In this document: positions 5,387 to 62,000 of the stretch, in pieces | Layout: every line of letters starts with the position of its first letter | Numbering within the stretch: the first letter of the stretch is position 1 | Translations under genes and position numbers: made by a program | Assembly: GCF_045679555.1 (NCBI RefSeq) | Contig: NC_092087.1 | Location: 86,787,864 to 86,851,863 of the forward strand | Source of the DNA: Salvelinus alpinus | Taxonomy: Eukaryota > Chordata > Actinopteri > Salmoniformes > Salmonidae | Direction of reading: 5' to 3' | Length of the DNA: 64,000 nt | The notes under the pieces: generated by a model | What the model was told of the DNA's origin: nothing | Databases searched by the model: none | The model's input: only the letters and a program-made list of their open reading frames with translations

Positions 5387-6413
5387 ATACTGAACAAAAA
5401 TATAAACTCAACATGTAAAGTGTTGGTCCCATGTTTCATGAGCTGAAATAAAAGAGGCCAAAAATGTTCTATACCCACAAAAAGCTTATTTCTCTCAGAT
5501 TGTGTGCACAAATTTGTTTACATCCCTGTTAGTGAACATTTATTCTTTGCCAAGATAATCCATCCACCTGACAGGTGTGGCATATCAAGAAGCTGATTAA
5601 ACAGCGTGATCATTGCACAGGTGCACCTTGTTCTGGGGACAATAAGAAGTCCACTCTAAAATGTGCAGTTTTGTCACACAACACAATGACACAGATGTGA
5701 GGGAGCGTGCAATTGGAATGCTGACTGCAAGACAGTCCACCAGAGCTGTTGCCAGAGAATGTAATGTTAATATCTCTACCATAAGCCGCCTCCAACGTTG
5801 TTTTAGAGAATTTGGCAGCACATGGTGTGGTGTCGTGTGGGCGAGTGGTTTGCTGATGTCAATGTTGTGAACAGAGTGCCCCATGGTGGAGGTGGGATTA
5901 TGGTAATGGGAAAGCATAAACTACGGACAGTGTATTTTATCGATGGCAATTTGAATGCACGGGATCCTGAGACCCATTCTAGTGCCATTCATCACAAGAA
6001 TCTCTACACAATTCCTGGAAACTGAAAATGTCCCAGTTCTCCCATGGCTTGCATACTCATCAGACATGTCACCCATTGAGCATGTTTAGGGTGCTCTGGA
6101 TCGACGTGTACGACAGCGTGTTCCAGTTCCCGCCAATATACAGCAACTTCACACAGCCATTCAAGAGGAGTGGGACAACATTCCACAGGCCACAATCAAC
6201 AGCCAGCAAAGGAGATGTGTAGCGCTGCATGAGGCAAACGGCGGTCACACCAGATACTGACTGCTTCTCTGATCCACACCTTATTTTGTTATGTATCTGT
6301 GACTAATAGGGCCTCATTTATTTCATTTATTTCAATTGACTGATTTCCTTATATGAATTGTAACTCAGTAAAATATTTGAAATTGTTGCATGTTGCATTT
6401 ATGTTTTGAGTAT
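5387..6413 (+). mobile_element. Tc1-like transposon, internally deleted (copy 1)
   Basis: The terminal inverted repeat starts TATACTGAACAAAAATATAA and is mirrored at the right end near 6390-6413. Inside are remnants of a Tc1 transposase on the plus strand: a helix-turn-helix stretch (TRAVARECNVNISTISRLQR, near 5740-5800), then HGGGGIMV, then SDMSPIEHV near 6063-6087 around the third acidic catalytic residue. The middle of the catalytic domain is missing and frames are broken. The same family recurs at 34477-39558 and 52200-53119. Confidence 0.88.
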
Positions 6414-6424
6414 AAATCCACTGT

Positions 6425-6425
6425 G

Positions 6426-6484
<59 letters not shown>

Positions 6485-6510
6485 CGCACACACGCACAGG
6501 CACACGCACA
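6425..6510. repeat. (CA)n microsatellite
   Basis: A run of CA from about 6425 to 6482, then imperfect CA/CGCA. It directly follows the Tc1 right end. The matching tract in copy B (39569-39592) is much shorter, as expected for slippage. Confidence 0.95.
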
Positions 6511-7308
6511 CACACACTGCAGTGTTACAATGTTTGTCTGCATGTCTATTTTACCCTGGTTAATCATCTCATCACTATGTAGATCAACACTCCTACACTG
6601 AGACACTTTATGAATACTGGCCCTGATGTAACAACCAAAACACAGCTCAAAACATAACAAGAAGTAAAATGATACATTAACCTCAAGTATATGACTTATT
6701 ACTAAAAACAAAAAAAACAGAAACTATATTTCAAGATATTGTCAAGAGTACTTACAGAGTGAAGTGAAGGGGAGAGGTCTTGTACAGTGAGTCAACTGAC
6801 TGGTAGTGAGTGGGAACTGCTAGTAAGTGTCAGTTCTGTGGTTGATACATATGTAAAGTAGTTTAGACACAAGTAGCTGATACAGAACTGTCCTTTCCTT
6901 CCTCTTTTAAGACATTAACATGCATGAGGACCAGAACAACATGTCAGAGAAGGGAGGTTACTGTATTAAAATGGGCCCTACATTTCTAAAATGGACAAAA
7001 TGTCCCCCATATCCACTTTTATTTAAATACAGAACCATGTTAACAATATGTTGACTATTCTATATGGAATGTTTATAATATATTGGAATGTGTTGCCTTG
7101 CCCCTCTTAGTTCTATATTCAACAGGTCAAAGTTCAAATTACATTTGGTCAGTTACATGAAGTCATTAATTCTATTCTACAAACCCATTCAATGTACACT
7201 CCTCATCAGCTGCATCAAAGGGAGGGGAACTCTGCAATGACCCCCTTTAGTGTCTACAACATGGTTGTCGTAGAGGCTAATGCCTGGGCAACAACCCCCT
7301 CAAAGTTC
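6511..7308. other. Non-coding stretch, no recognised feature
   Basis: AT-rich sequence shared with copy B (about 39593-40388). I see no credible coding frame, RNA gene or terminal repeats. Confidence 0.5.
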
Positions 7309-7440
7309 AAAATCAAATCAAATGGTATTTGTCATATGTGCAGAATATAACAGTGAAATGCTTATACAAGCCCTTAACCAACAGCGCAATTTTAAGAAAA
7401 TACCTCAAGAAAAGTAAGAGATAAGAATAACAAATAATTA
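7309..7440 (-). mobile_element. LINE 3'-tail fragment
   Basis: Starts with CAAATCAAATG-type short repeats, followed by tail sequence ending in AACAAATAATTAAAGAG. Such tails recur through salmonid LINE copies; a related tail is at 26315-26575. Counterpart in copy B near 40387-40525. Only the 3' end is present. Confidence 0.55.
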
Positions 7441-7768
7441 AAGAGATGACATCATCTGAGAAGGAGGGGATATGGAAATCAGAGGTGCACTTTGATTGAC
7501 ACTTCAAACACTCATTCTATATGTCTAGTGTTCTGTCTGTGCTGTGTGTCAGAGGAATACAAAAGGGGTGACACCCCCCCAACACCCCCATTCTGTCCAA
7601 GCTTCCTGTTCTCTTTTAAAGTAGGGACACAGTCCCTCATCCTCTTCTTCAATCTTCATTATTCTCCTCTTCCTCCCTCTGTCATCTGGACCGTGCGTGG
7701 TGGCCAGGGTTGTCAGGGTGGTCAGGGTTACCATGGTTTCCTGTCTCTTCTTCTCTGGACAGGCTTGT

Positions 7769-8007
7769 GTTTGCCAGCAGCATACCACCCTGCATCCGAC
7801 CGCTGGCTTGATTCTAAGCAGGGTTGGTCCTGGATAGGAGACCAGATGCTGCTGGAAGTGGTGTTGACGGGACAGAAGGAGGAACTCTTTTCTCTGGTCT
7901 AAAAACGATATCCTATATGCTCTGGGTAGGTTGCGGTCTTTCGGATGGGATGTTAATCATGTGTCCTGACTCTCTGTGGTCACTAAACACTCCCTGACAC
8001 TTATCAT

Positions 8008-8041
<34 letters not shown>

Positions 8042-8196
8042 AATTCTTAATCTGGCCCTCATGCCACCTAATCATCCCCAGCTTCCAATTGGCTCATTCA
8101 TCCCTTCTTCTCCCCACTGTAACTATTAGTTGTTGCTGTTCATGAGAATGTGTTCCCAATCAAGTTACCTGGTAAAATAAGGGTTATATAAAATAA
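7769..8196 (+). mobile_element. 5S rRNA-derived SINE (SINE3-like), copy A
   Basis: The head resembles 5S rRNA: CATACCACCCTG, then GCAGGGTTGGTCCTGG and ATAGGAGACC, which correspond to the internal control region for Pol III. A long unrelated body follows, then a tail ending GGTAAAATAAGGGTTATA. Non-coding; moved by a partner LINE in the family. Copy A has lost a few bases in the 5S box relative to copy B (GATTCTAAGCAGG against CTCTGAAGCTGAGCAGG). Confidence 0.8.
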
Positions 8197-8266
8197 CCAT
8201 AGAGACAGCCGGTGGTCCTCCAGAAGAAACACTAGTCAACATTGATGGGAGCCATCCTCCTGGGCC

Positions 8267-8351
8267 AGGGGGAGGGAGGGAGGGAGGGAGGGAGAGGGAG
8301 AGAGAGGGAGAGAGAGGGAGAGGGAGAGGGAGAGGGAGAGGGAGAGGGAGG

Positions 8352-8376
<25 letters not shown>
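8267..8376. repeat. (GGGA)n/(GA)n microsatellite
   Basis: GGGAGG, GGGAGA and GA runs. Longer here than the copy B counterpart at 41359-41400. Confidence 0.95.
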
Positions 8377-8382
<6 letters not shown>

Positions 8383-9535
8383 AACACAAGCACCTGCATG
8401 CCTGTGCTCCTTCAGTCATTTGTAATTTTGTATATTTCAAAAGTTTATATGAGTTGATTGGTAACACTTTAGAATAACTCATAATTAACACATTATAAAT
8501 GCTTATATATGTTGATAAATGATAGTTGACGTTTTGACCAGCAGAAGGTTGTCCTTACCCTGTGGAGGCGTACTGGGAGGCTGAGGAGATGTTAAGGCCT
8601 ATAGGGTTGGTCCTCTGAGGAGAGGGAGGGGTTTTCTGCATCTAGCGGTCTGGGAACCTGATCACCAGCTTGGTGCTCTCCAGCTCCACCCCTGGACAGG
8701 AGGTCAAACAGCAGGCACAATCGAAATACATAACATGGAACCAATAGCATAGTCACAAAAGTTAAATGAAACTAATAGCATTGTCCCAAAAGTACAATGG
8801 AACCAATAACATTGTATTGGGTTAATTTACCGGCACAAAGATTGTTTTTCCTTTGAAAGCTAGAAAGGAGTTGAATTGTTGTACTTTTCTCTCTGTGTTG
8901 GACAATGATGATACTATTTATGTGCAAGACTCAAGCTCTCCACTGAAGGCTCTTGAGTCTGTGTTATATGCAGAGACGTCTAACTCACCATTGTGATCTC
9001 TACAGTGCTGTCAGGTGGACATCAGTAGCAACACGCAGGCTCAAACCCTGGTACATTCTTATTCAGAAGACCATTTAATAAGGAAAACTGCCATTTTATA
9101 TATCCTCTCTTCTAGCAGGAAATGAGAACACATACAAACTCACATCTCAATCTTGTATAATGCTAACAGTACCGAATATTAGAACCAACATGGGAAAAAA
9201 TCATTTCATTACTCAGCCCCTGATCTAGAATTCCCTCCAAGCTAACCTAAAACACCAGGACCTGATGTCCCTGGAGGAGTTCAAAGGACAAATAGATGAA
9301 CAGGTCGTTGAGACATGTAGCGGTTTCTAGTTGTCATTCCATGTCACTAGATGGCATTGCCTTATGTAAGGAAACCTGTTGTTTTACACACATGCCTGCA
9401 CACACACACTGTTTGTTTGCTGTTGTATTTGTGCTGTTGCCAGTGTCTTCTGTCAGTACAGAACATAGAATGTAGAACTCTATCTCCCCTCACCTACAGT
9501 ACAGAATTAAGAAGTATAATGTAGAACGCTGATCA
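8377..9535. other. Non-coding stretch, no recognised feature
   Basis: Unique-looking sequence shared with copy B (about 41401-42555). No credible ORF, hairpin or terminal repeat was seen. It may contain remnants of the CD22-like pseudogene's introns, but I could not match any exon here. Confidence 0.4.
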
Positions 9536-9715
9536 AATCAAAATCAAATCAAATTTTACTGGTCACATACACATGGTTAGCAGATGTTATTGCGAGTGTA
9601 GCGAAATGCTTATGCTTCTAGATCCGACAGTGAGGCAGTATCTAACAGGTAATATCTAACAATTCCACAACAAAACCTAATATACACTATCTAGAAAAGG
9701 AATGGAATGAGAATA

Positions 9716-10149
9716 TACAGTTGAAGTCAGAAGTTTACATATACACCTTAGTCAAATACATTTAAAATCAGTTTTTCACAATTCCTGACATTTAATCCTA
9801 GTAAAACTTCTCTGTCTTAGGTCAGTTAGGATCACCACTTTATTTTAAGAATGTGAAATGTCAGAATAATAGGAGAGAATGATTTATTTCAGCTTTTATT
9901 TCTTTCATCACATTCCCAGTGGGTCCGAAGTTTACATACACTCAATTAGTATTTGGTAGCATTGCCTTTAAATTGTTTAACTTGGGTCAAAAGTTAGTTG
10001 GGTGAAACAATAAGTTGGGTGAATTTTGGCCCATTCCTCCTGACAGAGCTGATGTAACTGAGTCAGGTTTGTAGGCCTCCTTGCTCGCACAAGCTTTTTC
10101 AGTTCTGCCCACCAATTTTCGAGAGGATTGAGGTCAGGGCTTTGTGATG
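9716..10149 (-). mobile_element. Sleeping Beauty-type Tc1, left end and transposase C-terminus
   Basis: The left terminus begins CAGTTGAAGTCAGAAGTTTA, the signature of this salmonid Tc1 group, with an inner direct repeat (GGGTCCGAAGTTTACATACA) near 9921. The minus strand encodes the transposase C-terminus with [16 protein letters not shown], which includes the catalytic Glu of the DD34E triad. Everything upstream in the transposase is gone, and the element ends abruptly at GTGATGGC near 10149. Confidence 0.85.
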
Positions 10150-10638
10150 GCGCCAACAGTTGTTTCCTTCTCACCAAGCTGCTTGCCTATTGTCCTGTAG
10201 CCCATCCCAGCCTTGTGCAGGTCTACAATTTTATCCCTGATGTCCTTACACAGCTCTCTGGTCTTGGCCATTGTGGAGAGGTTGGAATCTGTTTGATTGT
10301 GTGTGGACAGGTGTCTTTTATACAGGTAACGAGTTCAAACAGGTGCAGTTAATACAGGTAATGAGTGGAGAACAGGAGGGCTTCTTAAAGAAAAACTAAC
10401 AGGTCTGTGAGAGCCGGAATTCTTACTGGTTGGTAGGTGATCAAATACTTATGTCATGCAATAAAATGCAAATTAATTACTTAAAAATCATACAATGTGA
10501 TTTTCTGGATTTTTGTTTTAGATTCTGTCTCTCATAGTTGAAGTGTACCTATGATAATAATTACAGACCTCTACATGCTTTGTAAGTAGGAAAACCTGCA
10601 AAATCGGCAGTGTATCAAATACTTGTTCTCCCCACTGT
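10150..10638. mobile_element. End of a second Tc1-like family fused to the first
   Basis: From GCCAACAGTTG onwards the sequence belongs to another Tc1-type element: a remnant with TTGGCCATTGTGGAG, then a long terminus ending ACTTGTTCTCCCCACTGTA at 10638. Copy B has different sequence at this place. It looks like the product of a deletion joining two different elements. Confidence 0.65.
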
Positions 10639-10905
10639 ATATCTCAATTGTGCACCTGTAAAAGTTAGTGAGGGTTTTCGGTGACAAGACAATTTTTTTC
10701 AGCCTCCTCAGGTTGTAGAGTCAATGTTGCCGCTTCTTCACCACACTGTCTGTGTGGGTGGACCATTTACATTTTCCACCTTCTCCACTACTGTCCCGTC
10801 GATGTGAATAGGGGGGTGCTCCCTTTGCTGTTTCTTGATCAAATAATTCTCCATAACATCCATTTTGGTGAACCAGAGGTTGTTGTGACTTTACTACTGA
10901 GACCA

Positions 10906-11183
10906 AATCAAATGTTATTGGTCACATACACGTGTTTAGCAGATGTTATTGTGGGTGTAGTGAAATTCTTGTGGTTCTAGCTCCAACTGTGCAGTAATAT
11001 CTGACAAGTAATATCTAACATTTTCACAACAATACTCACAATAGACACAAATCTAAGTAAAGGAATGTGATAAAAATATATAAATATTTGGACGAGCAAT
11101 GTCAGAGCGGCATAGACTAAGATACAGTAGAATAGAATACAGTATATACACATATGAGATGAGTAATGCAAAATACATGTAAG
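10906..11183 (-). mobile_element. Rex1-type 3'-end fragment inside pseudogene exon 2
   Basis: Begins AAATCAAATGTTATTGGTCA and continues as the Rex1 3' UTR (AGCAGATGTTATTG, GATGAGTAATG). It is a short 5'-truncated insert lying between two pieces of exon 2. Copy B has the same insert at the same point (about 44746-45023), so it predates the duplication. Confidence 0.75.
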
Positions 11184-11221
11184 AGCAGGACAGCTCCACT
11201 GCTGACCCCATCAAGGCACAC

Positions 11222-11600
11222 CATCACGGATCCCCGTTACTGCTGCTCATTCCGTTCACCTGCTCCGGAGGTCTACGTCACCGGCCTTCCCGGGTCACTG
11301 AACTGGATTCATTACCACCAACCCCGGACTGTCTTGTTATTACGCACACCTGGTTCCCATTCCCCCTGATTAGTATGTTCCCCATTGTCCTTGTTGATTA
11401 TTGTCCCCATGTCCGTTGGTCCTGTGAGTACCTGTGCTGTTGTATTGACTTCCATGCTACGTGTATTTGTGCACTTGTTTTACAGGTCTCGTCCCGAGTA
11501 TTATTTAGAGGTTTACACCTCGCTCTTTCGTTTAGGTGGAGAAAATTTAAAAAACATTTAGTATTCCTGCGCCTGTCTCCAATCATTAGACAACGTGACA
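11222..11600. mobile_element. Solo LTR inside pseudogene exon 2 (copy A)
   Basis: About 379 bp starting CATCACGGATCC (TATCACGG in copy B, so probably TGTCACGG originally) and ending CAACGTGACA. The ends are inverted (TGTCAC/GTGACA), as in an LTR. The flanks CACAC and CACTC look like a decayed 5-bp target duplication. No internal region remains. The copy B counterpart is at 45062-45442. Confidence 0.75.
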
Positions 11601-11956
11601 CACTCCAGCCATTCTGACCCAGTACCAGTGAAACAGTCACAGAACACAAGGATATTACATTAAGCCAGTGCCTATTGGCTCACACTAACAGTAGGGTTTG
11701 TTCACACTTTGTTGCTGTAGTTGCTGAGTTGAGCGTGAATGGAAACCACAGATAAGCATCACTCAGTGAGGTGTGAAAGATAACTATTTAAAGTAAAGTG
11801 GAGACGCCTGACAGAACACACCAGAATAACATTGTGGTTCCTTTTAAAAATATATGTAGATTGATAAACAGATAACCTAAAAGATAGGAATGAGACCATA
11901 CCTGTCACAGACCAGAGAAAGACCACCAACACACTTCCTGCTGTTCTCAAGGCCAT

Positions 11957-12907
11957 TGTTGCATCTCCCACCCTGCAGTCTTAGAAACATAAACAACAAC
12001 TCACTCTATAGCTGGTGAATAACTCCACCTGATACATTGAAGTAGAAACTGTAAATGGGTCATTACTGAATATAAAATGGAAAATATTCAGCACAGTTTA
12101 ATTTCTTTATTTGAAGAGTGAGTGATTTTTTAAAAGAGGCTAAATGTGACTCATTCCCATCACTCCTCATCAGCTGCATCAAAGTGGTACTGAAGGTTCC
12201 AGTGTTCTAGACTAGAGCGCTTCCTACTGGCATCTCAACATTACTGCAGCCTCTAGTCTCTCATGTCCTCATCCATTTGGATCATCTGAAGTTTTTATTA
12301 AAAAACAGTCTTCAGCTATCCTTCCTACTAATTAGTATAACATCTCTCTATTAGTAGGAAGGACAGCTAAAGACCGATGCTTGTTTATGGGTTTTTACTA
12401 AGAGCTTCAGATCAACATTACACTTACATGTTGGGTAAGATCACTTCAAAACAGTCTCCACTATGACCCCCAAAACCACGCCACCATTAACCCCTTGTAG
12501 ATGGGCAAAAAGTAACTCAATACATAACAGATCAATAACAAACTAGTAGTAAGGTGCCTGAGTATTTCATTTTTTATTTAACCTTTATTTAGTAGGACCC
12601 TTTCCTAAGTGTGCAAGTGCACACTTCCTGTCATGGATATAAAAGTATGGAATTGGTGTGAACATTGGCTGCAGATTCCATCTTTGATAAATCCATATGA
12701 GAAAGCGTACAAGTAGATACTTCGGGTGGAGAATCAAGACATAATCAAAAAGGCATAGGGCCAATGACGTCTGTAAACCAGTGATGTAAATAAACCCTGG
12801 ATTGCTGATGCTATGTATTGGGTAATGACAGGATTTGAAGCCACCAGTCAGCCATATTGGTACTCCCAAGAAGACGCAGTCCCCCATAGGAATTAATTGA
12901 ATTCTAC
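11957..12907. other. 5' flank of the CD22-like pseudogene, non-coding
   Basis: The first 100 bp (TCTTAGAAACATAAACAAC and TAGCTGGTGAATAACTCC) match the 5' flank of the intact gene at 27669-27760, so they are probably the old promoter. Apart from a hairpin at 12308-12374, I see nothing coding. Confidence 0.55.
12308..12374. repeat. Hairpin: 27-bp imperfect inverted repeat
   Basis: The left arm (12308-12334) contains AGCTATCCTTCCTACTAAT; the right arm (12348-12374) contains TTAGTAGGAAGGACAGCT. A loop of about 13 bp and only a few mismatches. It is conserved in copy B near 46246-46312. Could be the core of a small MITE or a foldback element. Confidence 0.75.
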
Positions 12908-13072
12908 CAGAGGAGGCTGGTGGGAGGAGCTATAGGAGGATGGGCTCATTGTAAAGACTGGAATGGAATTCATGGAACATATAGAAACCACTTTTGACTC
13001 AGTTCCAATAATTCCATTCCAGCCATTACAATGATCCCGTCCTCCTATAGCTCCTCCGACCAGCCTCCTCTG
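12908..13072. mobile_element. MITE with about 45-bp terminal inverted repeats (copy A)
   Basis: Starts CAGAGGAGGCTGGTGGGAGG and ends with its near-perfect reverse complement, GACCAGCCTCCTCTG. The arms are about 45 bp around a centre of about 75 bp. No coding capacity. Its twin is in copy B at 46845-47010. Confidence 0.85.
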
Positions 13073-13391
13073 AAATCTACATATTTCAATTCAATGTTTC
13101 AAGGACATATTTACATTTATTTAAGTACTTTTGTTGTTGTAGTGGGAAAAGTAACATTGGTACTTTCCAAAAATTCTAATGTAAGGATATTTTTTTTTAA
13201 ATGTGTGTGTTTAGCTCACATAATATAATTTGAAAGTATGCATTTTTCTTTGCCACTAATTGGTGGCCTTTTGTCCATTCAGATCAGATATTTTGCCAAT
13301 AATTGGGCAAAAGAACAGAATTGAACTGCCTGTGTAAACACAGCATAAGATATAAACCCATCATTGGCTGGAGCCAGGGAGAGGGAGGGAA

Positions 13392-14560
13392 GATGGTGGA
13401 TGGCGAAAAGAAGCGAGGCAGAAAGAAGGGCGTGGAGGTTCATACCCAGACCGACATCTTCAAAAAAGAAGCCAAATAATTTCTCCTATGAGTCAAGTAC
13501 AGGAGAAATAACTACATGTTACTCTCCTGAAAACCCTGAGCAGTTGATGGATAGTGAACTTGAAATGGAACTTGACAGAAGTGAAGAGGAAGTGTGGCTT
13601 CAGGTGAGGTGAAGGCTTCCGAGCCTCATCCCAATGATCAGGGAAATGACTCTGGCCCAGTGGGAGTACGATCCGTGGAGAAAATGGATCAATGCCTTTT
13701 GGCCGATCCGTTTATGGTATCAGGCTGTGAAGAAGGAGTTGGGTTCTGTCAATTTGGTCAAAGTATCCAGAAGTGGATGTTTTGTGTGTCTGCTGCACAG
13801 AGGGACAGGGCGCTATGTGTTTTGCAACTCGGAACGAGCTCTGTGTCCTGCTTTGCTCTCCGGAGCAGAGCGCAGCTGAAAGGTGTGATAACTGTTCACT
13901 GTTTAGTGTTGAAGTGGATCAACTGAAGCTGAGAATCCCCGGTGTCTGTGATGCACGCCGTTTGGTGTGTAGCAGACCCGGTGGCGAGTGAGAGACTGAG
14001 AAGACCCTGTCTGTCCTTCTGAGTTTTGTTGCAGAGTTTTTGCTGGATAAAGGCATGCTTTGACAGCTTTTGTTCCGAACCCACTACGGTGTTTCAGGTT
14101 CCAAGTTTAAGACCATGTTGCAGCAGTATGTAGGAGGGAGATTCCCAGGTGTGATAAGTGTGCAGGAGGGTATGGGACAAAGGACTGTAGTTTCGGTGAA
14201 AAAGTGTTTCAATTGTGAGGGTGGCCATGGTGGGGATCAGGAATGTCTATTGTGAGTGAGACAGATTGAAGTGCAGAAAGTGTCATATACTGAGGCAGTG
14301 AGGAAAGTAGAGGATGTCAGGCTAAGGGTGAGGGAGCCTGAGAGGATCCATGTGAGTACTAGGCCGGTACAGAGTGACCCGAACAGTTTTTGCTTTAGTA
14401 AGGTAGGCTTCTTGGCATGTATTGCTGTGGTCATTAATTGTACCACACGGATGGAAAGGAAATCCCATGAGATTGAATTCATAGTAGCAGCAGCAGAGAA
14501 GTTGTGGGGTATCAGAGATTTTAGTGCAGAAGAACTATAGGTGGTTTTGAGAGAAAGGGT
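13392..14560 (+). pseudogene. Gag/ORF1-like fragments of a retroelement (copy A)
   Basis: Plus-strand reading gives a basic start (MVDGEKKRGRKKGVEVHTQT), a Cys-rich stretch (CFNCEGGHGGDQECLL) near 14202-14250, and a C-terminal part with VSYTEAVRKVEDVRLR and MERKSHEIEFIVAAAE. The pieces lie in several frames with stops. The Cys-rich and YAEAV-like motifs resemble ORF1/gag proteins of fish non-LTR elements, but I cannot name the family. Bases 13588-14289 are inverted in copy B. Confidence 0.55.
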
Positions 14561-14635
14561 TCAGGCCTCCTGGGTGTAGGATCTGTTAGGTCCAAGGTAG
14601 TGGTGGGATGTGTTGGGGATAGTGGTATATATAAG

Positions 14636-16252
14636 TGTAACAGTATAGCTTCTGTCCCTCTCCTCGCCCCTACCTGGGCTCGAACCAGGGACCCTCTGCA
14701 CACATCGACAACAGTCACCCACGGCCCTTGCAGAGCAAGGGTGTATAACCGCTGTATAACCGTGGTAAGGCTGGCTGTATGAGCTGTCTGACCGTAGTAA
14801 GGCTGGCTGTATGAGCTGTCTGACCGTAGTAAGGATGGCTGTATGAGCTGTCTGACCGTAGTAAGGCTGGCTGTATGAGCTGTATAACCATAGTAAGGTT
14901 GGCTGTATGAGCTGTATAACCGTAGTAAGGCTGGCTGTATGAGCTGTATAACCATAGTAAGGCTGGCTATATGAGCTGTATAACCGTAGTAAGGCTGGCT
15001 GTATGAGCTGTCTGACCGTAGTAAGGCTGGCTGCATGAGCTGTATAACCGTAGTAAGGCTGGCTGTATGAGCTGTCTGACCGTAGTAAGGCTGGCTGTAT
15101 GAGCTGTATAACCATAGTAAGGCTGGCTGTATGAGCTGTATAACCGTAGTAAGGCTGGCTGTATGAGCTGTATAACCGTAGTAAGGCTGGCTGTATGAGC
15201 TGTATAACCATAGTAAGGCTGGCTGTATGAGCTGTATAACCGTAGTAAGGCTGGCTGTATGAGCTGTATAACCGCAGTAAGGCTGGCTGTATGAGCTGTA
15301 TAACCGCAGTAAGGCTGGCTGTATGAGCTGTATAACCGTAGTAAGGCTGGCTGTATGAGCTGTCTGACCGTAGTAAGGCTGGCTGTATGAGCTGTATAAC
15401 CGTAGTAAGGCTGGCTGTATGAGCTGTATAACCATAGTAAGGCTGGCTGTATGAGCTGTCTGACCTTAGTAAGGCTGGCTGTATGAGCTGTATAACCGTA
15501 GTAAGGCTGGCTGTATGAGCTGTCTGACCGTAGTAAGGCTGGCTGTATGAGCTGTCTGACCGTAGTAAGGCTGGCTGTATGAGCTGTATAACCATAGTAA
15601 GGCTGGCTGTATGAGCTGTCTGACCGTGTTAAGGCTGGCTGTATGAGCTGTCTGACCCTGTGAAGGCTGGCTGTATGAGCTGTATAACCATAGTAAGGCT
15701 GGCTGTATGAGCTGTATAACCATAGTAAGGCTGGCTGTATGAGCTGTATATCCGTAGTAAGGCTGGCTGTATGAGCTGTATAACCGTAGTAAGGATGGCT
15801 GTATGAGCTGTCTGACCGTAGTAAGGCTGGCTGTATGAGCTGTATAACCCTTGCACAACTACTTCAAGGTCTCAGAGCGAGTGACGTCACCGATTGAAAC
15901 GCTATTAGCGCGCACAACCGCTAACTAGCTAGCCATTTCACATCGGTTATACTCACCCCCCTTTTGATCTCTTCCTTTTCCGCAGCAACCAGTGATCCGG
16001 ATCCTGGCACCAATGTAACAGTATAGCTTCCGTCACTCTCCTCACCCCTACCTGGGCTCAAACCAGGGACCGTCTGCACACATCGACAACAGTCACCCAT
16101 GAAGCATCGTTACCCATCGCTCCACAAAAGCCGCAGCCCTTGCAGAGCAAGGGGAACAACTACTTCAAGGTCTCAGAGCGAGTGACGTCACCGATTGAAA
16201 CGCTATTAGCGCGCACGACCGCTAACTAGCTAGCCATTTCACATCGGTTGCA
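14636..16252 (-). mobile_element. TRIM-like miniature LTR retrotransposon with expanded LTR
   Basis: Two copies of an LTR of about 240 bp are present in the same orientation. The right one (16014-16252) is complete. The left one (14636-15949) has the same ends but contains a tandem array. Read on the minus strand, the LTR begins TGCAACCGATG and ends CTGTTACA. Only 64 bp (15950-16013) lie between the LTRs: TTGGTGCCAGGATCC, a primer-binding-like start, and then a purine-rich run (AAAAGGAAGAGA, AAAAGGGGGG) just before the second LTR. A 4-bp TAAG flanks both sides (14632-14635 and 16253-16256), as for integrase-made target duplications. No coding region. The left LTR also lacks about 34 bp present in the right one. 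Confidence 0.72.
14753..15851. repeat. 32-bp minisatellite inside an LTR
   Basis: About 34 head-to-tail units of 32 bp with core GTAAGGCTGGCTGTATGAGC. Units come in two main types ending TGTCTGACC or TGTATAACC. The array replaces a few bases of the LTR between GCAGAGCAAGGG and AACTACTTCAAGG. It is entirely absent from copy B. It has no spacers and is not a CRISPR. Because 32 is not a multiple of 3, minus-strand frames stay open over it by chance (QPYYGYTAHTAS-type peptides); this is not a gene. Confidence 0.93.
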
Positions 16253-17320
16253 TAAGGTTAGATGGTGGTGCAATTTCCTTTTGTCCCCATTTCCCTTTTT
16301 TTGTGAATAAATGTGCAATGCACTTTCCAAACTGTGAAAGGCAGCAATATGCAACAATGTGTCTAGTCTGTTGGAAAACCACAGGAAGAAGAAAAAGCCA
16401 GGAGCAGAGAGGAAGCAGCGAAGCCAACATTTTGGCCAGGGACCAGGCGAGGGTTTCACATTTCCCCCCAAAGCGTTTCATCAATTAAGTACGTTAACAT
16501 GCACAGTAATAATTCAATATTAAACTGATTATGGCAGTAGGCAGACGCAATAGTCATGTAAACAGGTTACATGACTATTAATCGGTGTAAGGTCAAAATC
16601 GAAGTAAGCATACGGATATGAGATTATTTTTTTTATGAGATAAATTTTTTTTAATGGTTTTCTGAGCAACCTTTCTAATTATTAGGAAACGTAAACACCT
16701 TAATCAGCGTTCCAGCGGTGTATTTGATCTGCATGTAGTCAGGGACATTGAGTTTAATAGAGAGCAGCTTGCCACATAGTCTGTTTAAGCATGGCTAGAG
16801 CCATTGTATGCACCCTTTCAGTTAGTTGACAGACTGTCATTAAACTCATAGAAATAGTAGAAGAAGAATATTTGACTACCATAACATGGAGGTAGCCCTC
16901 AATGGCAATGCCCATGCTGTCACAAAAGCCTTAATGGGAAAGATGCAAAGATGTGCCCTCTATATAACTCTATGTCAGAGACCAAGACGCTGATGGAGAG
17001 ATGCTTTCTTCCTCACTGTCACAGTCCGTGTTCGAGAGCATCAAAACCCTGATGTATCATGGGTAAATTGTGACTGACGGACTGATCTACAAATGATATT
17101 GAATAGTTATTTTTCATGGAAGGTGATTTGTGGAAGGTGATCTCGACTCACCTTTTAAGTTGGATGCAATACCTAATGCGCCCAAATGTACATGCTTTTC
17201 AACCAATGATGTCATTCAATGTTATAATAACTATCCACTGTGCTGTGTAACACATGTATAAATTCATCTTTAAGATTTCAAGATAACAGACAATAAAGAA
17301 TGAAAACCAAAGCTGTAATA
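16253..17320. other. Intergenic, no recognised gene
   Basis: Up to 16736 this is duplicated in copy B (48814-49268). Beyond that it is unique in the window and AT-rich. No ORF or RNA gene supported. Confidence 0.45.
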
Positions 17321-38778: not shown

Positions 38779-39568
38779 GATAAAGTAATCCTTCTCACCT
38801 CCCCCTTAAAAGATATAGATGCACTATTGTAAAGTGGCTGTTCCACTGGATGTCATAAGGTGAATGCACCAATTTGTAAGTCGCTCTGGATAAGAGCGTC
38901 TGCTAAATGACTTAAATGTAAATGTTTTAGAGAATTTGGCAGCACATCCACCCGGCCTCACAACCACAGACCACGTGTATGGTGTCGTGTGGGCGAGTGG
39001 TTTGCTGATGTCAATGTTGTGAACTGAGTGCCCCATGGTGGAGGTGGGATTATGGTAATGGAAAAGCATAAGCTACGGACAGTGTATTTTATCGATGGCA
39101 ATTTGAATGCACGGGATCCTGAGACCCATTCTAGTGCCGTTCATCACAAGAATCTCTACACAATTCCTGGAAACTGAAAATGTCCCAGTTCTCCCATGGC
39201 TTGCATACTCATCAGACATGTCACCCATTGAGCATGTTTAGGGTGCTCTGGATCGACGTGTACGACAGCGTGTTCCAGTTCCCGACAATATCCAGCAACT
39301 TCACACAGCCATTCAAGAGGAGTGGGACAACATTTCACAGGCCACAATCAACAGCCAGCGAAGGAGATGTGTAGCGCTGCATGAGGCAAGTGGTGGTCAC
39401 ACCAGACACTGACTGCTTCTCTGATCCACACCTTATTTTGTTATGTATCTGTGACTAACAGGGCCTCATTTATTTATTTATTTCAATTGACTGATTTCCT
39501 TATATGAATTGTAACTCAGTAAAATCTTTGAAATTGTTGCATTTATGTTTTGAGTATAAATCCACTGT

Positions 39569-39592
39569 GTCACACACACACACACACACACA
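39569..39592. repeat. Short (CA)n microsatellite
   Basis: About 11 CA units, the copy B counterpart of the longer tract at 6425. Confidence 0.93.
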
Positions 39593-40852
39593 CTGCAGTG
39601 TTACAATGTTTGTCTGCATGTCTTTTTTACCCTGGTTAATCATCTCATCACTATGTAGATCAACACTCCTACACTGAGACACTTTGTGAATACTGACCCT
39701 GATGTAACAACCAAAACACAGCTCAAAACATAACAAGAAGTAAAATGATACAATACCCTCAAGAATATGACTTATTACTGAAAACAAATAACAGGAAACT
39801 ATATTTCAAGATATTGTGAAGAGTACTTAGAGTGAAGTGAAGGGGAGAGGTCTTGTACAGTGAGTCAACTGACTGGTAGTGAGTGGGAACTGCTAGTAAG
39901 TGTCAGTTCTGTGGTTGATACATATGTAAAGTAGTTAAGACACAAGTAGCTGATACAGAACTGTCCTTTCCTTCCTCTTTAAGACATTAACATGCATGAG
40001 GACCAGAACAGCATGTCAGAAAAGGGAGGTTACTGTATTAAAATGGGCCCTACATTTCTAAAATGGACAAAATGTCCCCCATTTCCACCTTAATTTAAAT
40101 ACAGAACCATGTTAACAATATGTTGACTATTCTATATGGAATGTTTATAATATATTGGAATGTGTTGCCTTGCCCCTCTTAGTTCTATATTCAACAGGAC
40201 AAAGTTCAATTTACATTTGGTCAGTTACACGAAGTCATTAATTCTATTCTACAAACACATTCAATTTACACTCATCATCAGCTGTATCAAAGGGGGGGGG
40301 AACCCTGCAATGACCTCCTTTAGTGTCTACAACATGGTTGTCGTAGAGGCTGATGCCTGGGCAACAACCCCCTCAAAGTTTGAATGATCAAAATCAAATC
40401 AAATGTTATTTGTCATATGCGCAGAATACAACAGTGAAATGCTTATTTACAAGCCCTTAACCAACAACGCAATTTTAAGAAAATACCTCAAGAAAAGTAA
40501 GAGATAAGAATAACAAATAATTAAAGAGATGACATCATCTGAGAAGGAGGGGGGAAAGGAAATCAGAGGTGCACTCCTCATCACTTTGATTGACACTTCA
40601 AACACTCATACTGTATGTCCAGTGTGCTGTCTGTGGTGTGTGTCAGAGGACAACAAAAGGGGTAACACCCCCCAACACCCCCATTCTGTCCAAGCTTCCT
40701 GTTCCCTTTTAAAGTAGGGACACAGTTCCTCATCCTCTTCTTCAATCTTCATTATTCTCCTCTTCCTCCCTCTGTCATCTGGACGGTGCGTGGTGGCCAG
40801 GGTGGTCAGGGTTACCATGGTTTCCTGTCTCTTCTTCTCTGGACAGGCTTGT
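39593..40852. other. Non-coding, shared with copy A
   Basis: Counterpart of 6511-7768, including the LINE-tail fragment at about 40387-40525. No credible gene. Confidence 0.45.
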
Positions 40853-41097
40853 GTTTGCCAGCAGCATACCACCCTGCATCCGACCGCTGGCTTGCCTCTG
40901 AAGCTGAGCAGGGTTGGTCCTGGATAGGAGACCAGATGCTGCTGGAAGTGGTGTTGACGGGACAGAAGGAGGAACTCTTTTCTCTGGTCTAAAAACGATA
41001 TCCTATATGCCCTGGGTAGGTTGCGGTCTTTCGGATGGGATGTTAATCATGTGTCCTGACTCTCTGTGGTCACTAAACACTCCCTGACACTTATCGT

Positions 41098-41131
<34 letters not shown>

Positions 41132-41286
41132 AATTCTCAATCTGGCCCTCATGCCACCTAATCATCCCCAGCTTCCAATTGGCTCATTCATCCCCTCTTC
41201 TCCCCACTGTAACTATTAGTTGTTGCTGTTAATGAGAATGTGTTCCCAATCAAGTTACCTGGTAAAATAAGGGTTATATAAAATAA
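40853..41286 (+). mobile_element. 5S rRNA-derived SINE, copy B
   Basis: As at 7769-8196 but with the complete 5S box (GAAGCTGAGCAGGGTTGGTC, ATAGGAGACC). The tail ends GGTAAAATAAGGGTTATA. Confidence 0.8.
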
Positions 41287-41400
41287 CCATAGAGACAGCC
41301 GGTGGTCCTCCAGAAGAAACACTAGTCAACATTGATGGGAGCCATCCTCCTGGGCCAGGTGGAGGGAGGGAGGGAGAGGGAGAGGGAGAGAGAGAGAGAA

Positions 41401-42555
41401 TGACAACACAAGCACCTGCATGCCTGTGCTCCTTCAGTCATTTGTAATTTTGTACATTTCAAAATTTTATATGAGTTGATTGGTAACACTTTAGAATAAC
41501 TCATAATTAACACATTATAAATGCTTATATATGTTTATAAATGATAGTTGACGTTTTGACCAACAGAAGGTTGTCCTTACCCTGTGGAGGCGTACTGGGA
41601 GGCTGAGGAGATGTTAAGGCCTATAGGGTTGGTCCTCTGAGGAGAAGGAGGGGTTTTCTGCATCTAGCGGTCTGGGAACCTGATCACCAGCTTGGTGCTC
41701 TCCAGCTCCACCCCTGGACAGGAGGTCAAACAGCAGGCACAATCGAAATACATAACATGGAACCAATAGCATAGTCACAAAAGTTCAATGAAACTAATAG
41801 CATTGTCCCAAAAGTACAATGGAACGAATAACATTGTATTGGGTTAATTTACCGGCACAAAGATTGTTTTTCCTTTGAAAGCTAGAAAGGAGTTGAATTG
41901 TTGTACTTTTCTCTCTGTGTTGGACAATGATGATACTATTTATGTGCAAGACTCAAGCTCTCCACTGAAGGCTCTTGACTCTGTGTTATATGCAGAGACG
42001 TCTAACTCACCATTGTGATCTCTACAGTGCTGTCAGGTGGACATCAGTAGCAACACGCAGGCTCAAACCCTGGTACATTCTTATTCAGAAGACCATTTAA
42101 TAAGGAAAACTGACATGTTATATATCCTCTCTTCTAGCAGGAAATGAGAACACATACAAACTCACATCTCAATCTTGTTTAATGCTAACACTAACGAAAA
42201 TTAGGACCAAACATGGGAAAAAATCATTTCATTATTCAGCCCCTGATCTAGAATTCCCTCCAAGCTAACCTAAAACACTAGGACCTGATGTCCCTGGATG
42301 AGTTCGAAGGACAAATTGATGAACAGGTCGTTGAGACATGTAGCAGTTTCTAGTTGTCATTCCATGTCACTAGATGACATTGCCTTATGTAAGGAAACCT
42401 GTTGTTTTACACACATGCCTGCACACACACACTGTTTGTTTGCTGTTGTATTTGTGCTGTTCCCAGTGTCTTCTGTCAGTACAGAACATAGAGTTCTACA
42501 TTCTATCTCACCTCACCTACAGTACAGAATTAAGAAGTATAATGTAGAACGCTGA
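41401..42555. other. Non-coding, shared with copy A
   Basis: Counterpart of 8377-9535. Nothing recognised. Confidence 0.4.
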
Positions 42556-44700
<2,145 letters not shown>

Positions 44701-45798
44701 CATTTTGGTGAACCAGAGGTTGTTGTGACTTTACTACTGAGACCAAATCAAATGTTATTGGTCACATACACGTGTTTAGCAGATGTTATTGTGGGTGTAG
44801 TGAAATTCTTGTGTTTCTAGCTCCAACTGTGCAGTAATATCTGACAAGTAATATCTAACATTTTCACAACAATACTCACAATAGACACAAATCTAAGTAA
44901 AGGAATGTGATAAAAATATATAAATATTTGGACGAGCAATGTCAGAGCGGCATAGACTAAGATACAGTAGAATAGAATACAGTATATACACATATGAGAT
45001 GAGTAATGCAAAATACATGTAAGAGCAGGACAGCTCCACTGCTGACCCCATCAAGGCACACTATCACGGATCCCCGGTACTGCTGCTCATTCCGTTCACC
45101 TGCTCCGGATGTCTACGTCACCGGCCTTCCCGGGTCACTGAACTGGATTCATTACCACCAACCCCGGACTGTCTTGTTATTACGCACACCTGGTTCCCAT
45201 TCTCCCTGATTGGTATGTTCCCCATTGTCCTTGTTGATTATTGTCCCCATGTCCGTTGGTCCTGTGAGTACCTGTGCTGTTGTATTGACTTCCATGCTAC
45301 GTGTATTTGTGCACTTGTTTTACGGGTCTCGTCCCGTGTATTATTTAGAGCTTTACACCTCGCTCTTTCGTTTAGGTGGAGAAAATAAAATAAAAACATT
45401 TAGTATTCTTGCGCCTGTCTCCAATCATTAGACAACGTGACACACTCCAGCCATTCTGACCCAGTACCAGTGAAACAGTCACAGAACACAAGGATATTAC
45501 ATTAAGCCAGTGCCTATTGGCTCACACTAACAGTAGGGTTTGTTCACACTTTGTTGCTGTAGTTGCTGAGTTGAGCGTGAATGGAAACCACAGATAAGCA
45601 TCACTCAGTGAGGTGTGAAAGATAACTATTTAAAGTAAAGTGGAGACGCCTGACAGAACACACCAGAATAACATTGTGGTTCCTTTTAAAAATATATGTA
45701 GATTGATAAACAGATAACCTAAAAGATAGGAATGAGATCATACCTGTCACAGACCAGAGAAATACCACCAACACACGTCCTTCTGTTCTCAAGGCCAT
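44701..45798 (-). pseudogene. CD22-like receptor pseudogene, exons 1-2 (copy B)
   Basis: Exon 1 is 45798-45744 (MALRTEGRVLVVFLWSVT). Exon 2 has the same three-way split as in copy A: start near 45469-45443 with the same AC in place of the AG acceptor, middle near 45057-45024, third piece near 44745-44701. The LTR (45062-45442) and Rex1 tail are at the same points. Non-functional; shared lesions show it was dead before the duplication. Confidence 0.85.
45062..45442. mobile_element. Solo LTR inside pseudogene exon 2 (copy B)
   Basis: Starts TATCACGGATCC, ends CAACGTGACA. Same insertion point as 11222-11600. Confidence 0.75.
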
Positions 45799-46844
45799 TG
45801 TTGCATCTCCCACCCTGCAGTCTTAGAAACATAAACAACAACTCACTCTATAGCTGGTGAATAACTCCACCTGATACATTGGAGTAGAAACTGTAAATGG
45901 GTCTTTACTGAATATAAAATGGAAAATTCAGCACAGTTTAATTTCTTTATTTGAAGAGTGAGCCTACATTTTTTAAAAGAGGCTAAATGTGACTCATTCC
46001 CATCACTCCTCATCAGCTGCATCAAAGTGGTACTGAAGGTTCCAGTGTTCTAGACTAGAGCTCTCCCTACTGGCATCTCAACATTACTGCAGTGTTCTAG
46101 ACTAGAGCTCCCCCTACTGGCATCTAAACATTACTGCAGTGTTCTAGACTAGAGCTCTCCCTACTGGCATTTCAACATTACTGCAGCCTCTAGTCTCTCA
46201 TGTCCTCATCCATTTGGATCATCTGAAGTTTTTATTAAAAAACAGTCTTCAGCTATCCTTCCTACTAATTAGTATAACATCTCTCTATTAGTAGGAAGGA
46301 CAGCTAAAGACCGATGCTTGTTTATGGGTTTTTACTAAGAGCTTCAGATCAACATTACACTTACATGTTGGGTAAGATCACTTCAAAACAGTCTCCACTA
46401 TGACCCCCAAAACCACGCCCCCATTAACCCCTTGTAGATGGGCAAAAAGTAACTCAATACATAACAGATCAATAACAAACTAGTAGTAAGGTGCCTGAGT
46501 ATTTCATTTTTTATTTAACCTTTATTTAGTAGGACCCTTTCCTAAGTGTGCAAGTGCACACTTCCTGTCATGGATATAAAAGTATGGAATTGGTGTGAAC
46601 ATTGGCTGCAGATTCCATCTTTGTTAAATCCATATGAGAAAGCGTGCAAGTAGATACTTCGGGTGGAGAATCAAGACATAATCAAAAAGGCATAGGGCCA
46701 ATGACGTCTGTAAACCAGTGATGTAAATAAACCCTGGATTGCTGATGCTATGTATTGGGTAATGACAGGATTTGAAGCCACCAGTCAGCCATATTGGTAC
46801 TCCCAAGAAGACGCAGTCCCCCATAGGAATTAATTGAATTCTAC
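45799..46844. other. 5' flank of pseudogene B, non-coding
   Basis: Counterpart of 11957-12907, including the hairpin (about 46246-46312), and enlarged by the 47-bp triplication. Confidence 0.45.
46045..46185. repeat. 47-bp unit in three tandem copies, single in copy A
   Basis: Unit GTGTTCTAGACTAGAGCTCT...ACATTACTGCA, 3 x 47 bp. Copy A has one unit near 12200-12246. A local amplification after the duplication. Confidence 0.9.
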
Positions 46845-47010
46845 CAGAGGAGGCTGGTGGGGGGGAGCTATAGGAGGATGGGCTCATTGTAAAGACTGGA
46901 ATGGAATTCATGGAACATATAGAAACCACTTTTGACTCAGTTCCAATAATTCCATTTCAGCCATTACAATGATCCCGTCCTCCTATAGCTCCTCCGACCA
47001 GCCTCCTCTG
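46845..47010. mobile_element. MITE with about 45-bp terminal inverted repeats (copy B)
   Basis: Twin of 12908-13072, with a short G insertion (GGTGGGGGGGAG) in the left arm. Confidence 0.85.
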
Positions 47011-47346
47011 AAATCTACATATTTCAATTCAATGTTTCAAGGACATATTTACATTTATTTAAGTATTTTTGTTGTTGTAGTGGGAAAAGTAACATTGGTA
47101 CTTTCCAAAAATTCTAATGTAAGGATATTTTTTTTTATATATTGTTTTATTTTAAATGTGTGTGTTTAGCTCACATAATATAATTTGAAAGTATGCATTT
47201 TTACTTGCCACTAATTGGTGGCCTTTTGTCCATTCAGATCAGATATTTTGCCAATAATTGGGCAAAAGAACAGAATTTAACTGCCTGTGTAAACACAGCA
47301 TAAGATATAAACCCATCATTGGCTGGAGCCAGGGAGAGGGAGGGAA

Positions 47347-48510
47347 GATGGTGGATGGCGAAAAGAAGCGAGGCAGAAAGAAGGGCGTGGAGGTTCATAC
47401 CCAGACTGACATCTTCAAAAAAGAAGCCAAATAATTTCTCCTATGAGTCAAGTACAGGAGAAATAACTACATGTTACTCTCCTGAAAACCTGAGCAGTCG
47501 ATGGATAGTGAACTTGAAATGGAACTTGACAGAAGTATATGACACTTTCTGCACTTCAATCTGTCTCACTCACAATAGACATTCCTGATCCCCACCATGG
47601 CCACCCTCACAATTGAAACACTTTTTCACCGAAACTACAGTCCTTTGTCCCATACCCTCCTGCACACTTATCACACCTGGGAATCTCCCTCCTACATACT
47701 GCTGCAACATGGTCTTAAACTTGGAACCTGAAACACCGTAGTGGGTTCGGAACAAAAGCTGTCACAGGATAACGTATATACCGTAGCATGCCTTTATCCA
47801 GCAAAAACTCTGCATCAAAACTCAGAAGGACAGACAGGGTCTGTCACCGGGTCTGTCACCGGGTCTGCTACACACCAAACGGCGTGCATCACAGACACCG
47901 GGGATTCTCAGCTTCAGTTGATCCACTTCAACACTAAACAGTGAACAGTTATCACACCTTTCAGCTGCGAGAGAGCAGAGAGAGAGCAAAGCAGGACACA
48001 GAGCTCGTTCCGAGTTGCAAAACACATAGCGCCCTGTCCCTCTGTGCAGCAGACACACAAAACATCCACTTCTGGATACTTTGACCAAATTGACAGAACC
48101 CAACTCCTTCTTCACACAGCCTGATACCATCAACGGATCGGCCAAAAGGCATTGATCCATTTCCTCCACGGATCGTACTCCCACTGGGCCAGAGTCATTT
48201 CCCTGATCATTGGGATGAGGCTCGGAAGCCTTCACCTCACCTGACGCCACACTTCCTATATACTGAGGCAGTGAGGAAAGTAGAGGATGTCAGGCTAAGG
48301 GTGAGGAGCCTGAGAGGATCCATGTGAGTACTAGGCCGGTACAGAGTGACCTGAACAGTTTTTGCTTTAGTAAGGTAGGCTTCTTGGCATGTATTGCTGA
48401 AGTCATTAATTGTACCACACGGATGGAAAGGAAATCCCATTGAGATTGAATTCATAGTAGCAGCAGCAGAGAAGTTGTGGGGTATCAGAGATTTTAGTGC
48501 AGAAGAACTA
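47347..48510. pseudogene. Gag/ORF1-like fragments, middle part inverted (copy B)
   Basis: The outer parts read on the plus strand as in copy A. The middle, 47536-48256, is its reverse complement, so the Cys-rich CFNCEGGHGGDQECLL now reads on the minus strand near 47570-47625. Several frames and stops. Confidence 0.7.
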
Positions 48511-48608
48511 CAGGTGGTTTTGAGAGAAAGGGTTCAGGCCTCCTGGGTGTAGGATCTGTTAGGTCCACGGTAGTGGTGGGATGTGTTGGGGATAGTGGTA
48601 TATATACG

Positions 48609-48813
48609 TGTAACAGTATAGCTTCTGTCCCTCTCCTCGCCCCTACCTGGGCTCGAACCAGGGACCCTCTGCACACATCGACAACAGTCACCCACGGCCC
48701 TTGCAGAGCAAGGGGAACAACTACTTCAAGGTCTCAGAGCGAGTGACGTCACCGATTGAAACGCTATTAGCGCACACGACCGCTAACTAGCTAGCCATTT
48801 CACATCGGTTGCA
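48609..48813 (-). mobile_element. Solo LTR of the miniature LTR element (copy B)
   Basis: A single LTR from TGTAACAG to CATCGGTTGCA with no tandem array. It has the approximately 34-bp deletion of copy A's left LTR and the right flank (TAAGG) of copy A's right LTR. Confidence 0.82.
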
Positions 48814-49645
48814 TAAGGTTAGATGGTGGTGCAATTTCCTTTTGTCCCCATCTCCCTTTTTCTTTGTGAATAAATGTGCAATGCACTTTCCAAACTGTGA
48901 AAGGCAGCAATGTGTCTAGTCTGTTGCAAAACCACAGGAAGAAGAAAAAGCCAGGAGCAGAGAGGAAGCAGCGAAGCCAACATTTTGGCCAGGGACCAGG
49001 CGAGGGTTTCACATTTCCCCCAAAAGCGTTTCATCAATTAAGTACGTTAACATGCACAGTAATAATTCAATATCAAACTGATTATGGCAGTAGGCAGACG
49101 CAATAGTCATGTAAACAGCTTACATGACTATTAATCGGTGTAAGGTCAAAATCGAAGTAAGCATACGGATATGAGAAAAAAAAAAAACGTTTTCTGATCA
49201 ACCTTTCTAATTATTAGGAAACGTAAACACCTTAATCAGCGTTCCAGCTGTGTATTTGATCTGCATGTGCTAGCACCAGCCAAGCGAGCCTACTCCCTCT
49301 TTAGCGCGAGTGAAGTGAGTTCGGTAGAAACTGAATGGATGCATCTTAGAAATAGTTTTAAAATACAAACTTTACATGTCCGAACTCAGAATCAAATATG
49401 CTCACCAAAATAACATGGTTGCTGTGGAAGAACTTTTATTTTGATTAGCGATTTTCTGTATTTATTAGATTTCAGATGTGTCCATTATTTGGGAGATCGT
49501 TCTTTGTACAAAGCATGTAAACGTTTTTAATGGAACTGTTATATGAATCAGATTATCCACAATAATCGCGTTACTGTGTGGATGTAACGGCACTCAATGT
49601 TATTGTTTTTCCTTGATTGACACTACTAAAGTGAATTCAAACAAT

Positions 49646-61300: not shown

Positions 61301-61950
61301 ATTTGATGTAATCTTAGTATGTTGTAGTCACCATCTGCTACAACTGTTCTGTCTGTTGTATTTGATGTAATCTTAGTATGTTGTAGTCACCATCTGCTAC
61401 AACTGTTCTGTCTGTTGTATTTGATGTAATCTTAGTATGTTGTAGTCACCATCTGCTACAACTGTTCTGTCTGTTGTATATGATGTAATCTTAGTATGTT
61501 GTAGTCACCATCTGCTACAACTGTTCTGTCTGTTGTATTTGATGTAATCTTAGTATGTTGTAGTCACCATCTGCTACAACTGTTCTGTCTGTTGTATACG
61601 ATGTAATCTTAGTATGTTGTAGTCACCATCTGCTACAACTGTTCTGTCTGTTGTATATGATGTAATCTTAGTATGTTGTAGTCACCATCTGCTACAACTG
61701 TTCTGTCTGTTGTATATGATGTAATCTTAGTATGTTGTAGTCACCATCTGTTACAACTGTTCTGTCTGTTGTGTATGTTGTAGTCACCATCTGCTACAAC
61801 TGTTCTGTCTGTTGTATTTGATGTAATCTTAGTATGTTGTAGTCACCATCTGCTACAACTGTTCTGTCTGTTGTATTTGATGTAATCTTAGTATGTTGTA
61901 GTCACCATCTGCTACAACTGGTCTGTCTGTTGTATATGATGTAATCTTAG

Positions 61951-62000
61951 TACATTTACATTTAAGTCATTTAGCAGACGCTCTTATCCAGAGCGACTTA
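61951..62000 (-). mobile_element. L2/SINE tail captured in the 59-bp array (first copy)
   Basis: TACATTTACATTTAAGTCAT, TTAGCAGACGCTC, TTATCCAGAGCGACTTA: the reverse complement of the L2/SINE 3' tail, about 50 bp, without any upstream body. Confidence 0.88.

Follow-up and report, generated by a model that had tools for sequence, protein, structure and literature searches.

The unit at positions 14,636 to 16,252 of the window, which is the whole 64,000-nucleotide stretch of Salvelinus alpinus DNA analysed here, is an old copy of a high-copy, protein-less family of TRIMs (miniature LTR retrotransposons). We consider it likely that this family is of the Helenus type and propagates by the cycle proposed below, in which a Pol III transcript would be primed by tRNA-His. 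The original prediction had already read the unit as a TRIM, and that reading stands, as its size, its two LTRs, a primer-binding site (PBS) complementary to a tRNA, a polypurine tract (PPT) and target-site duplications were all found; what the prediction had overlooked is a tRNA-like segment within the LTR.

Anatomy of the element and its copies in the genome

Read on the minus strand, the unit consists of a 239-bp LTR, a 62-bp core and a second LTR, with TAAG at both outer ends exactly as predicted (Table 1). The two LTRs have the same orientation, and the right one agrees with the expected length of about 240 bp, whereas the left one, spanning 14636-15951, is 1,316 bp long because a 32-bp minisatellite sits between its two ends; these ends match the right LTR over 86 nt at 94% and over 94 nt at 99%. 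The spacer, previously given as 64 bp, is 62 bp long, and the PBS-like start and the purine-rich end described for it are both present. On the minus strand it opens with a single T and the PBS TGGTGCCAGGATCCGGAT, continues with a middle stretch and closes with AAAAGGGGGG and TGAG. The minisatellite also forms a separate array on another contig (C12:53633981-53635543), and no TRIM match was found in the fetched stretches around that array. The occurrence of the satellite elsewhere without the TRIM suggests that the 3' LTR of the window copy took in satellite DNA as filler, and such a capture is the most likely explanation. Owing to the satellite, the window copy is longer than the other LTR-core-LTR copies.

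Table 1. Positions of the TRIM, its parts and its paralogous copy in the window
Feature	Position	Strand	Remark
5' LTR (reading direction of the element)	16014..16252	-	239 bp
Internal core	15952..16013	-	62 bp
PBS, altered in the window copy	15995..16012	-	Compared with other genome copies
Second 11-nt complement to tRNA-His, GGTTGCTGCGG, collinear with the first	15980..15990	-	Shuffle test
PPT AAAAGGGGGG, followed by TGAG (15952-15955) and the 3' LTR	15956..15965	-	
3' LTR (reading direction), with minisatellite inside and without 34 nt of the box A region	14636..15951	-	
32-bp minisatellite within the 3' LTR, about 34 copies	14751..15849	.	
Target-site duplication TAAG, left	14632..14635	.	
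Target-site duplication TAAG, right	16253..16256	.	
Box B / T-arm of the tRNA-like segment, GGTTTGAGCCC in the window	16054..16064	-	
Candidate box A TGGAGCGATGGGTAACG, degenerate	16108..16124	-	
TTTT just 5' of box A, putative Pol III terminator in the 3' LTR	16126..16129	-	
Copy B, a solo LTR in the segmental duplicate, at the position paralogous to the element; the 34 nt missing from the left LTR are missing here too	48609..48813	-	

The 2.37-Gb genome containing the window was searched for further copies, and 50 loci were fetched, 20 by a match to the LTR end and 30 as the best of 40 scored from 2,025 core-plus-LTR candidates. After four repeats and the window itself were dropped, 45 distinct loci remained, comprising 28 LTR-core-LTR units, 14 LTRs alone (three of them partial) and three others; these proportions do not reflect the genome as a whole, since the ranking favours window-like copies and, in the second set, core-bearing ones. 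The LTR was matched, fully or partly, in all 20 loci chosen by the LTR-end match, and the total span is 502–550 bp in 28 of the 28 LTR-core-LTR loci (with one outer end extrapolated in eight). Moreover, 441 exact occurrences of the 29-nt core motif were counted genome-wide (control, 0), and the PPT-LTR junction pattern RGGGGGTGAGTGTAACD has 1,594 matches (control, 3), both counts omitting diverged copies. The junction pattern had been designed to exclude the TRIM, matched the majority form of the TRIM and was used as a copy count. The existence of these genome-wide copies excludes a chance origin of the window unit, and the number of junction matches in one genome adds a high-copy case to the TRIMs of vertebrates. 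The divergence between paired LTRs in 19 copies ranges from 0.031 to 0.103 (K2P; median, 0.059), with 0.061 and 0.032 for two comparable parts of the window copy, which indicates that the sampled copies are not recent.

Candidate Pol III signals in the LTR and the proposed cycle

A canonical T-arm with box B (CCTGG-TTCGAGC-CCAGG or close to it) is present in the sense orientation in 42 of 59 LTRs and in the antisense orientation in none of the 59, at a simulated chance of 0.00005 per LTR. In 44 of them a box A (with up to two mismatches) and a box B lie 30–75 nt apart, for which the chance is 0.00035; the LTRs are related to one another, so that the 59 are not independent cases. The commonest form of box B among the copies is GGTTCGAGCCC (33/59 LTRs). 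The placement of box A is ambiguous, with several sites that fit, and its commonest form is without the TRGCY that is usual in Helenus (PMC10886601). ARAGORN called no tRNA within the LTR in any of 20 loci, and Rfam gave no tRNA match in the LTR (window 14000-17000, 10 loci and one single LTR). Judged from its sequence, the segment reads as a decayed promoter derived from a tRNA or a SINE, which makes it a candidate Pol III promoter.

In addition, 53 of 61 LTRs (the 59 plus the two window copies) have a TTTT at LTR position 124, and the preferred box A follows 5 nt later, at 129; T4 runs elsewhere in these 61 LTRs number only three. It is preceded by a 7-bp hairpin (LTR positions 100–116), for which no compensatory changes were seen by eye among the listed variants. 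Possibly, transcription is ended by the TTTT and this hairpin in the 3' LTR alone. The same TTTT falls within the first 15 nt or so of the presumed transcript and would have to be ignored there, and the lack of T4 in the presumed transcript body is not significant, as 68% of shuffles are likewise without T4. This non-significance, together with the silence of the two tRNA detectors and the degenerate box A, would suit a conventional TRIM transcribed by Pol II, in which the tRNA-like segment would be a chance resemblance or a relic SINE fragment with no promoter role. However, both the T-arm and the box pair are far too frequent for chance, the T-arm occurs in the sense orientation only, and the same arrangement of boxes is reported for Helenus (PMC10886601), so that we hold a Pol II-driven TRIM to be an unlikely, although not negligible, explanation of the LTR.

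Helenus (TRIMp3; Kojima 2024) comprises TRIMs with tRNA-derived sequence in the LTR, which is presumed to be a Pol III promoter (PMC10886601), and its description in 2024 overturns the view in the original prediction that TRIMs of vertebrates are barely known. The families include LTR-11_DR and its relatives in Ostariophysi, LTR1_LCh, LTR2_LCh and those of sturgeon; the hosts in Table 1 of that paper are coelacanth, sturgeon, paddlefish, Cypriniformes, a catfish and milkfish, with no entry for Salmoniformes (PMC10886601). It is also reported there that animal Helenus elements have 4-bp target duplications, that the vertebrate ones are primed by tRNA-His, -Leu or -Lys, that the helpers of the animal ones were inferred by Kojima to be Gypsy elements, and that LTR-11_DR has thousands of LTRs as well as tandem arrays (PMC10886601). 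The fish family described here shares with Helenus a box B with T-arm in the LTR, to which a candidate box A may be added, the tiny non-coding interior with PBS and PPT, the 4-bp duplications, the tRNA-His primer, the solo LTRs and the tandem arrays (the latter as reported for LTR-11_DR). It differs in its box A, which is weaker than TRGCY, and in a second primer complement and apparently captured primer tRNAs (see below), of which the portions of PMC10886601 used here make no mention. Thus, it is probably a new Helenus family, placed beside Helenus by described features and not by sequence, and it would extend Helenus to the Salmoniformes, an order absent from the published table. No report of this TRIM family in salmonids was found in the open-access literature, nor was any match to six short sequence fragments of the family searched there.

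Among other known systems, Cassandra is a plant TRIM with a 5S rRNA-derived promoter (PMC7215508, PMC10886601), whose RNA starts and ends inside the promoter segment and carries 18-bp end repeats (PMC10886601). The salmonid family resembles it as a TRIM with a Pol III-type LTR promoter (here a candidate) and with tandem LTR-core arrays, and differs from it in host and in the origin of the promoter; identity with Cassandra was rejected, as Rfam gave no 5S rRNA match at E values up to 10 (window 14000-17000, 10 loci and one LTR). The ant PbTRIM, the cestode TRIM and biv-TRIM have the same short non-coding LTR-core-LTR plan, and they differ in that a tRNA-like LTR segment is not mentioned for them in the portions of PMC6934838 used here.

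In the cycle we propose, Pol III would start near boxes A and B in the 5' LTR, transcribe the core and stop in the 3' LTR, most likely at the TTTT just 5' of box A, which would leave a very short R repeat, comparable to the 18-bp ends reported for Cassandra (PMC10886601). tRNA-His would then prime at the PBS, a step well supported by an exact 18-nt complement and by three loci extended by tRNA sequence (see below), and the PPT would prime the second strand. An integrase would insert the DNA with the 4-bp target duplication that is seen in the products, the enzymes being supplied in trans by an LTR retrotransposon. Later recombination between the LTRs would yield solo LTRs, as the structure of copy B indicates, and the 3' LTR of the window copy would have taken in its minisatellite. 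The family offers a vertebrate system for asking whether Pol III can feed the cycle of an LTR retrotransposon, and how such a transcript ends. For annotation it carries a warning, because solo copies with box B and captured primer tRNAs (as in L116) could be mistaken for SINEs or tRNA genes.

The tRNA-His primer and the internal core

The PBS in the genome copies is TGGTGCCGTGACCCGGAT. Compared with tRNA-His plus CCA in 29 other copies (L030-L058), it matches at 18/18 positions in 14, at 17/18 in four and at 15–16/18 in three, so that the comparison of the 18 nt behind the LTR with tRNA 3' ends, as proposed with the original prediction, pointed to tRNA-His. The remaining eight copies (L041, L042, L043, L048, L051, L055, L056 and L057) have a common PBS variant, TTGATGCTGTTGACCCGGAT, which does not match tRNA-His and is one base longer than its complement; five of the eight have perfect target duplications. 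A genome search found no tRNA gene with a 3' end complementary to the variant, and the variant copies form no clear LTR group (permutation p 0.099). When the complementary tRNA end was sought by a pattern made of the PBS complement plus the T-loop, 18 places were found in the genome, and ten of them were fetched. In nine of the ten, ARAGORN places a tRNA-His at the site, and its call in the tenth lies at a neighbouring gene. tRNA-His with CCA is the exact 18-nt complement of the PBS, and the CCA is not gene-encoded in any of the nine. Six further loci (L101-L106) were chosen by their PBS, and their exact PBS match is thus not independent.

Three of the 18 places are themselves TRIM copies (on C23, C31 and C33). 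L114 and L115 each have 38 nt of tRNA-His in antisense, CCA included, at the PBS with 100% identity, and in L116 all 75 nt of tRNA-His (100%) stand right behind the LTR-T, followed by a short LTR tail, the variant PBS and the core; ARAGORN calls this sequence in L116 tRNA-His. A search for decayed tRNA-His extensions with three mismatches allowed found only these three exact loci. A tRNA-His sequence that runs past the PBS is expected if the plus strand was copied into the primer, and the three loci look like products, or fossils, of such copying. Alternatively, gene conversion by a tRNA gene may have produced them, an explanation we keep because the tRNA segments are exact while the adjoining LTRs have diverged; the CCA cannot separate the two, since it is already contained in the PBS. 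Read as products of copying, the three loci would be physical evidence of the priming tRNA, for which complementarity alone is normally available. In a narrow literature search, no paper on a primer tRNA captured in a TRIM was found.

Furthermore, GGTTGCTGCGG complements a segment further inside tRNA-His, in the same order as in the tRNA, and is present in 17 of 24 extracted cores (window included; 30 tried). A second complement of 11 nt was reached in one of 4,000 shuffles, and the controls (tRNA-Thr, tRNA-Ala and the sense strand) each give 5. Between these two complementary segments L114 and L115 also carry tRNA-His sequence, so that the core of ordinary copies resembles the same imprint in which CACT has replaced the middle. 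We tentatively suggest, from these sequence matches and as a possibility on the less probable side, that the core is largely an imprint of the primer, made up of 18 nt from the 3' end of tRNA-His, CACT, 11 nt from the anticodon stem and variable loop, and the PPT; that the PBS has two parts; and that the reverse transcriptase sometimes copies deeper (38 nt twice, the whole mature tRNA once), the products being fixed in the genome. If this is true, the TRIM would have hardly any sequence of its own between the LTRs and would be a retrotransposon refreshed by its tRNA primer and recording it. Two-part primer-binding sites are present in the yeast elements Ty1 and Ty3, which are autonomous, coding and primed by the initiator tRNA. 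The complements of 18 nt and 11 nt suggest a similar multi-segment pairing here, seen as a sequence match only, in a TRIM which, unlike Ty1 and Ty3, is non-coding and uses tRNA-His.

The core is too short to code, and the element would therefore be moved in trans. PBS and PPT patterns were used to look for an autonomous helper, and none was found; all six PBS matches with a changed base before ACA proved to be divergent TRIM copies. It has been noted that TRIMs in general can arise as deletion derivatives (PMC10886601, legend to Figure 1), and the LTR could accordingly have come from a large autonomous element that lost its interior. This is very unlikely in view of the core that recurs in 28 of the 45 loci (a core match having been the basis for choosing 30 of the 50 fetched), the 441 exact core motifs, and the fact that even the six altered PBS matches are still TRIM copies. 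L099 and L100 represent a separate LTR family (LTR of about 445 bp in L099) with the same tRNA-His PBS, each with two broken reading frames without a Pfam match (at E 1 in L099 and at E 0.1 in L100), and they were not shown to be the helper. The same holds for L113, an LTR fragment which ends in TGTTACA like the TRIM, has the same PBS and is without a long reading frame. These loci are evidence that further LTR elements primed by tRNA-His once existed in the same genome. L100 also contains a Sleeping Beauty-like transposon, and in L113 an abundant tRNA-like SINE (about 2600-2880) lies right after the tRNA-His PBS; this SINE has 3,104 candidates in the genome, the 40 scored being mostly 97–98% identical.

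Insertion signature and the segmental duplication

Both outer ends could be placed in 32 of the 45 loci, and their flanks match at 4/4 bases in 25, at 3/4 in four and at two or fewer in three. Among the LTR-core-LTR loci with both ends (20/28) the numbers are 16 at 4/4, three at 3/4 and one lower, among the LTR-alone loci (11/14) eight, one and two, respectively, and the single such locus of the three others matches at 4/4. A 4/4 match has a chance probability of about 1/256 at each locus. When the window is counted as well, the perfect 4-bp duplications amount to 26 sites with 21 different sequences, and so the many LTR-core-LTR copies with differing target duplications that had been proposed as a check are present, with a duplication length of 4 bp. 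The empty site was also recovered, as the host repeat is uninterrupted across the junction in five of five other fetched copies. Another copy of that host repeat (L112) has a different insertion, without a TRIM match, almost exactly at the TRIM insertion point.

Spread by segmental or tandem duplication only, with no mobile element, could call on the location of the window's two copies in a segmental duplication and on tandem units about 300 bp apart, but it is contradicted by the empty site and by the differing perfect duplications in 25 of 32 loci, and hardly deserves any weight. Such tandem LTR-core units occur among the matches listed, for example at C1:55973223-55973840 and C12:10522248-10522872.

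The second copy in the window, copy B, had been taken as support for a mobile unit on account of identical ends and flanks. This support falls away, since copy B occupies the corresponding site of the segmental duplicate as a solo LTR, so that its ends and flanks are no independent evidence of mobility, and its left flank is TACG and not TAAG. The duplicated flanks (14285-14741 and 48258-48714) are 98% identical, and the duplication also pairs 5825-13582 with 38977-47536, in several pieces. Copy B shares a 34-nt deletion with the left LTR, but towards its other end it has the bases of the right LTR; the breakpoints of this deletion were not seen in the other 59 LTRs. Such a mixture of left- and right-LTR traits is as expected after recombination between the LTRs, and, by its sequence, copy B is the same insertion as the window element and not a second one.

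As to other repeats, the large direct segmental duplication in the window extends over 5825-16736 and 38977-49268, in pieces about 93–98% identical. In a genome search with RF00005, the 63 candidates scored contained nothing but one tandem tRNA array; a tandem tRNA-gene array lies at C7:42554611-42664967, with a spacing in multiples of about 748 bp. Finally, a 59-bp satellite array occupies window positions 58504-64000 and reaches the window's end.
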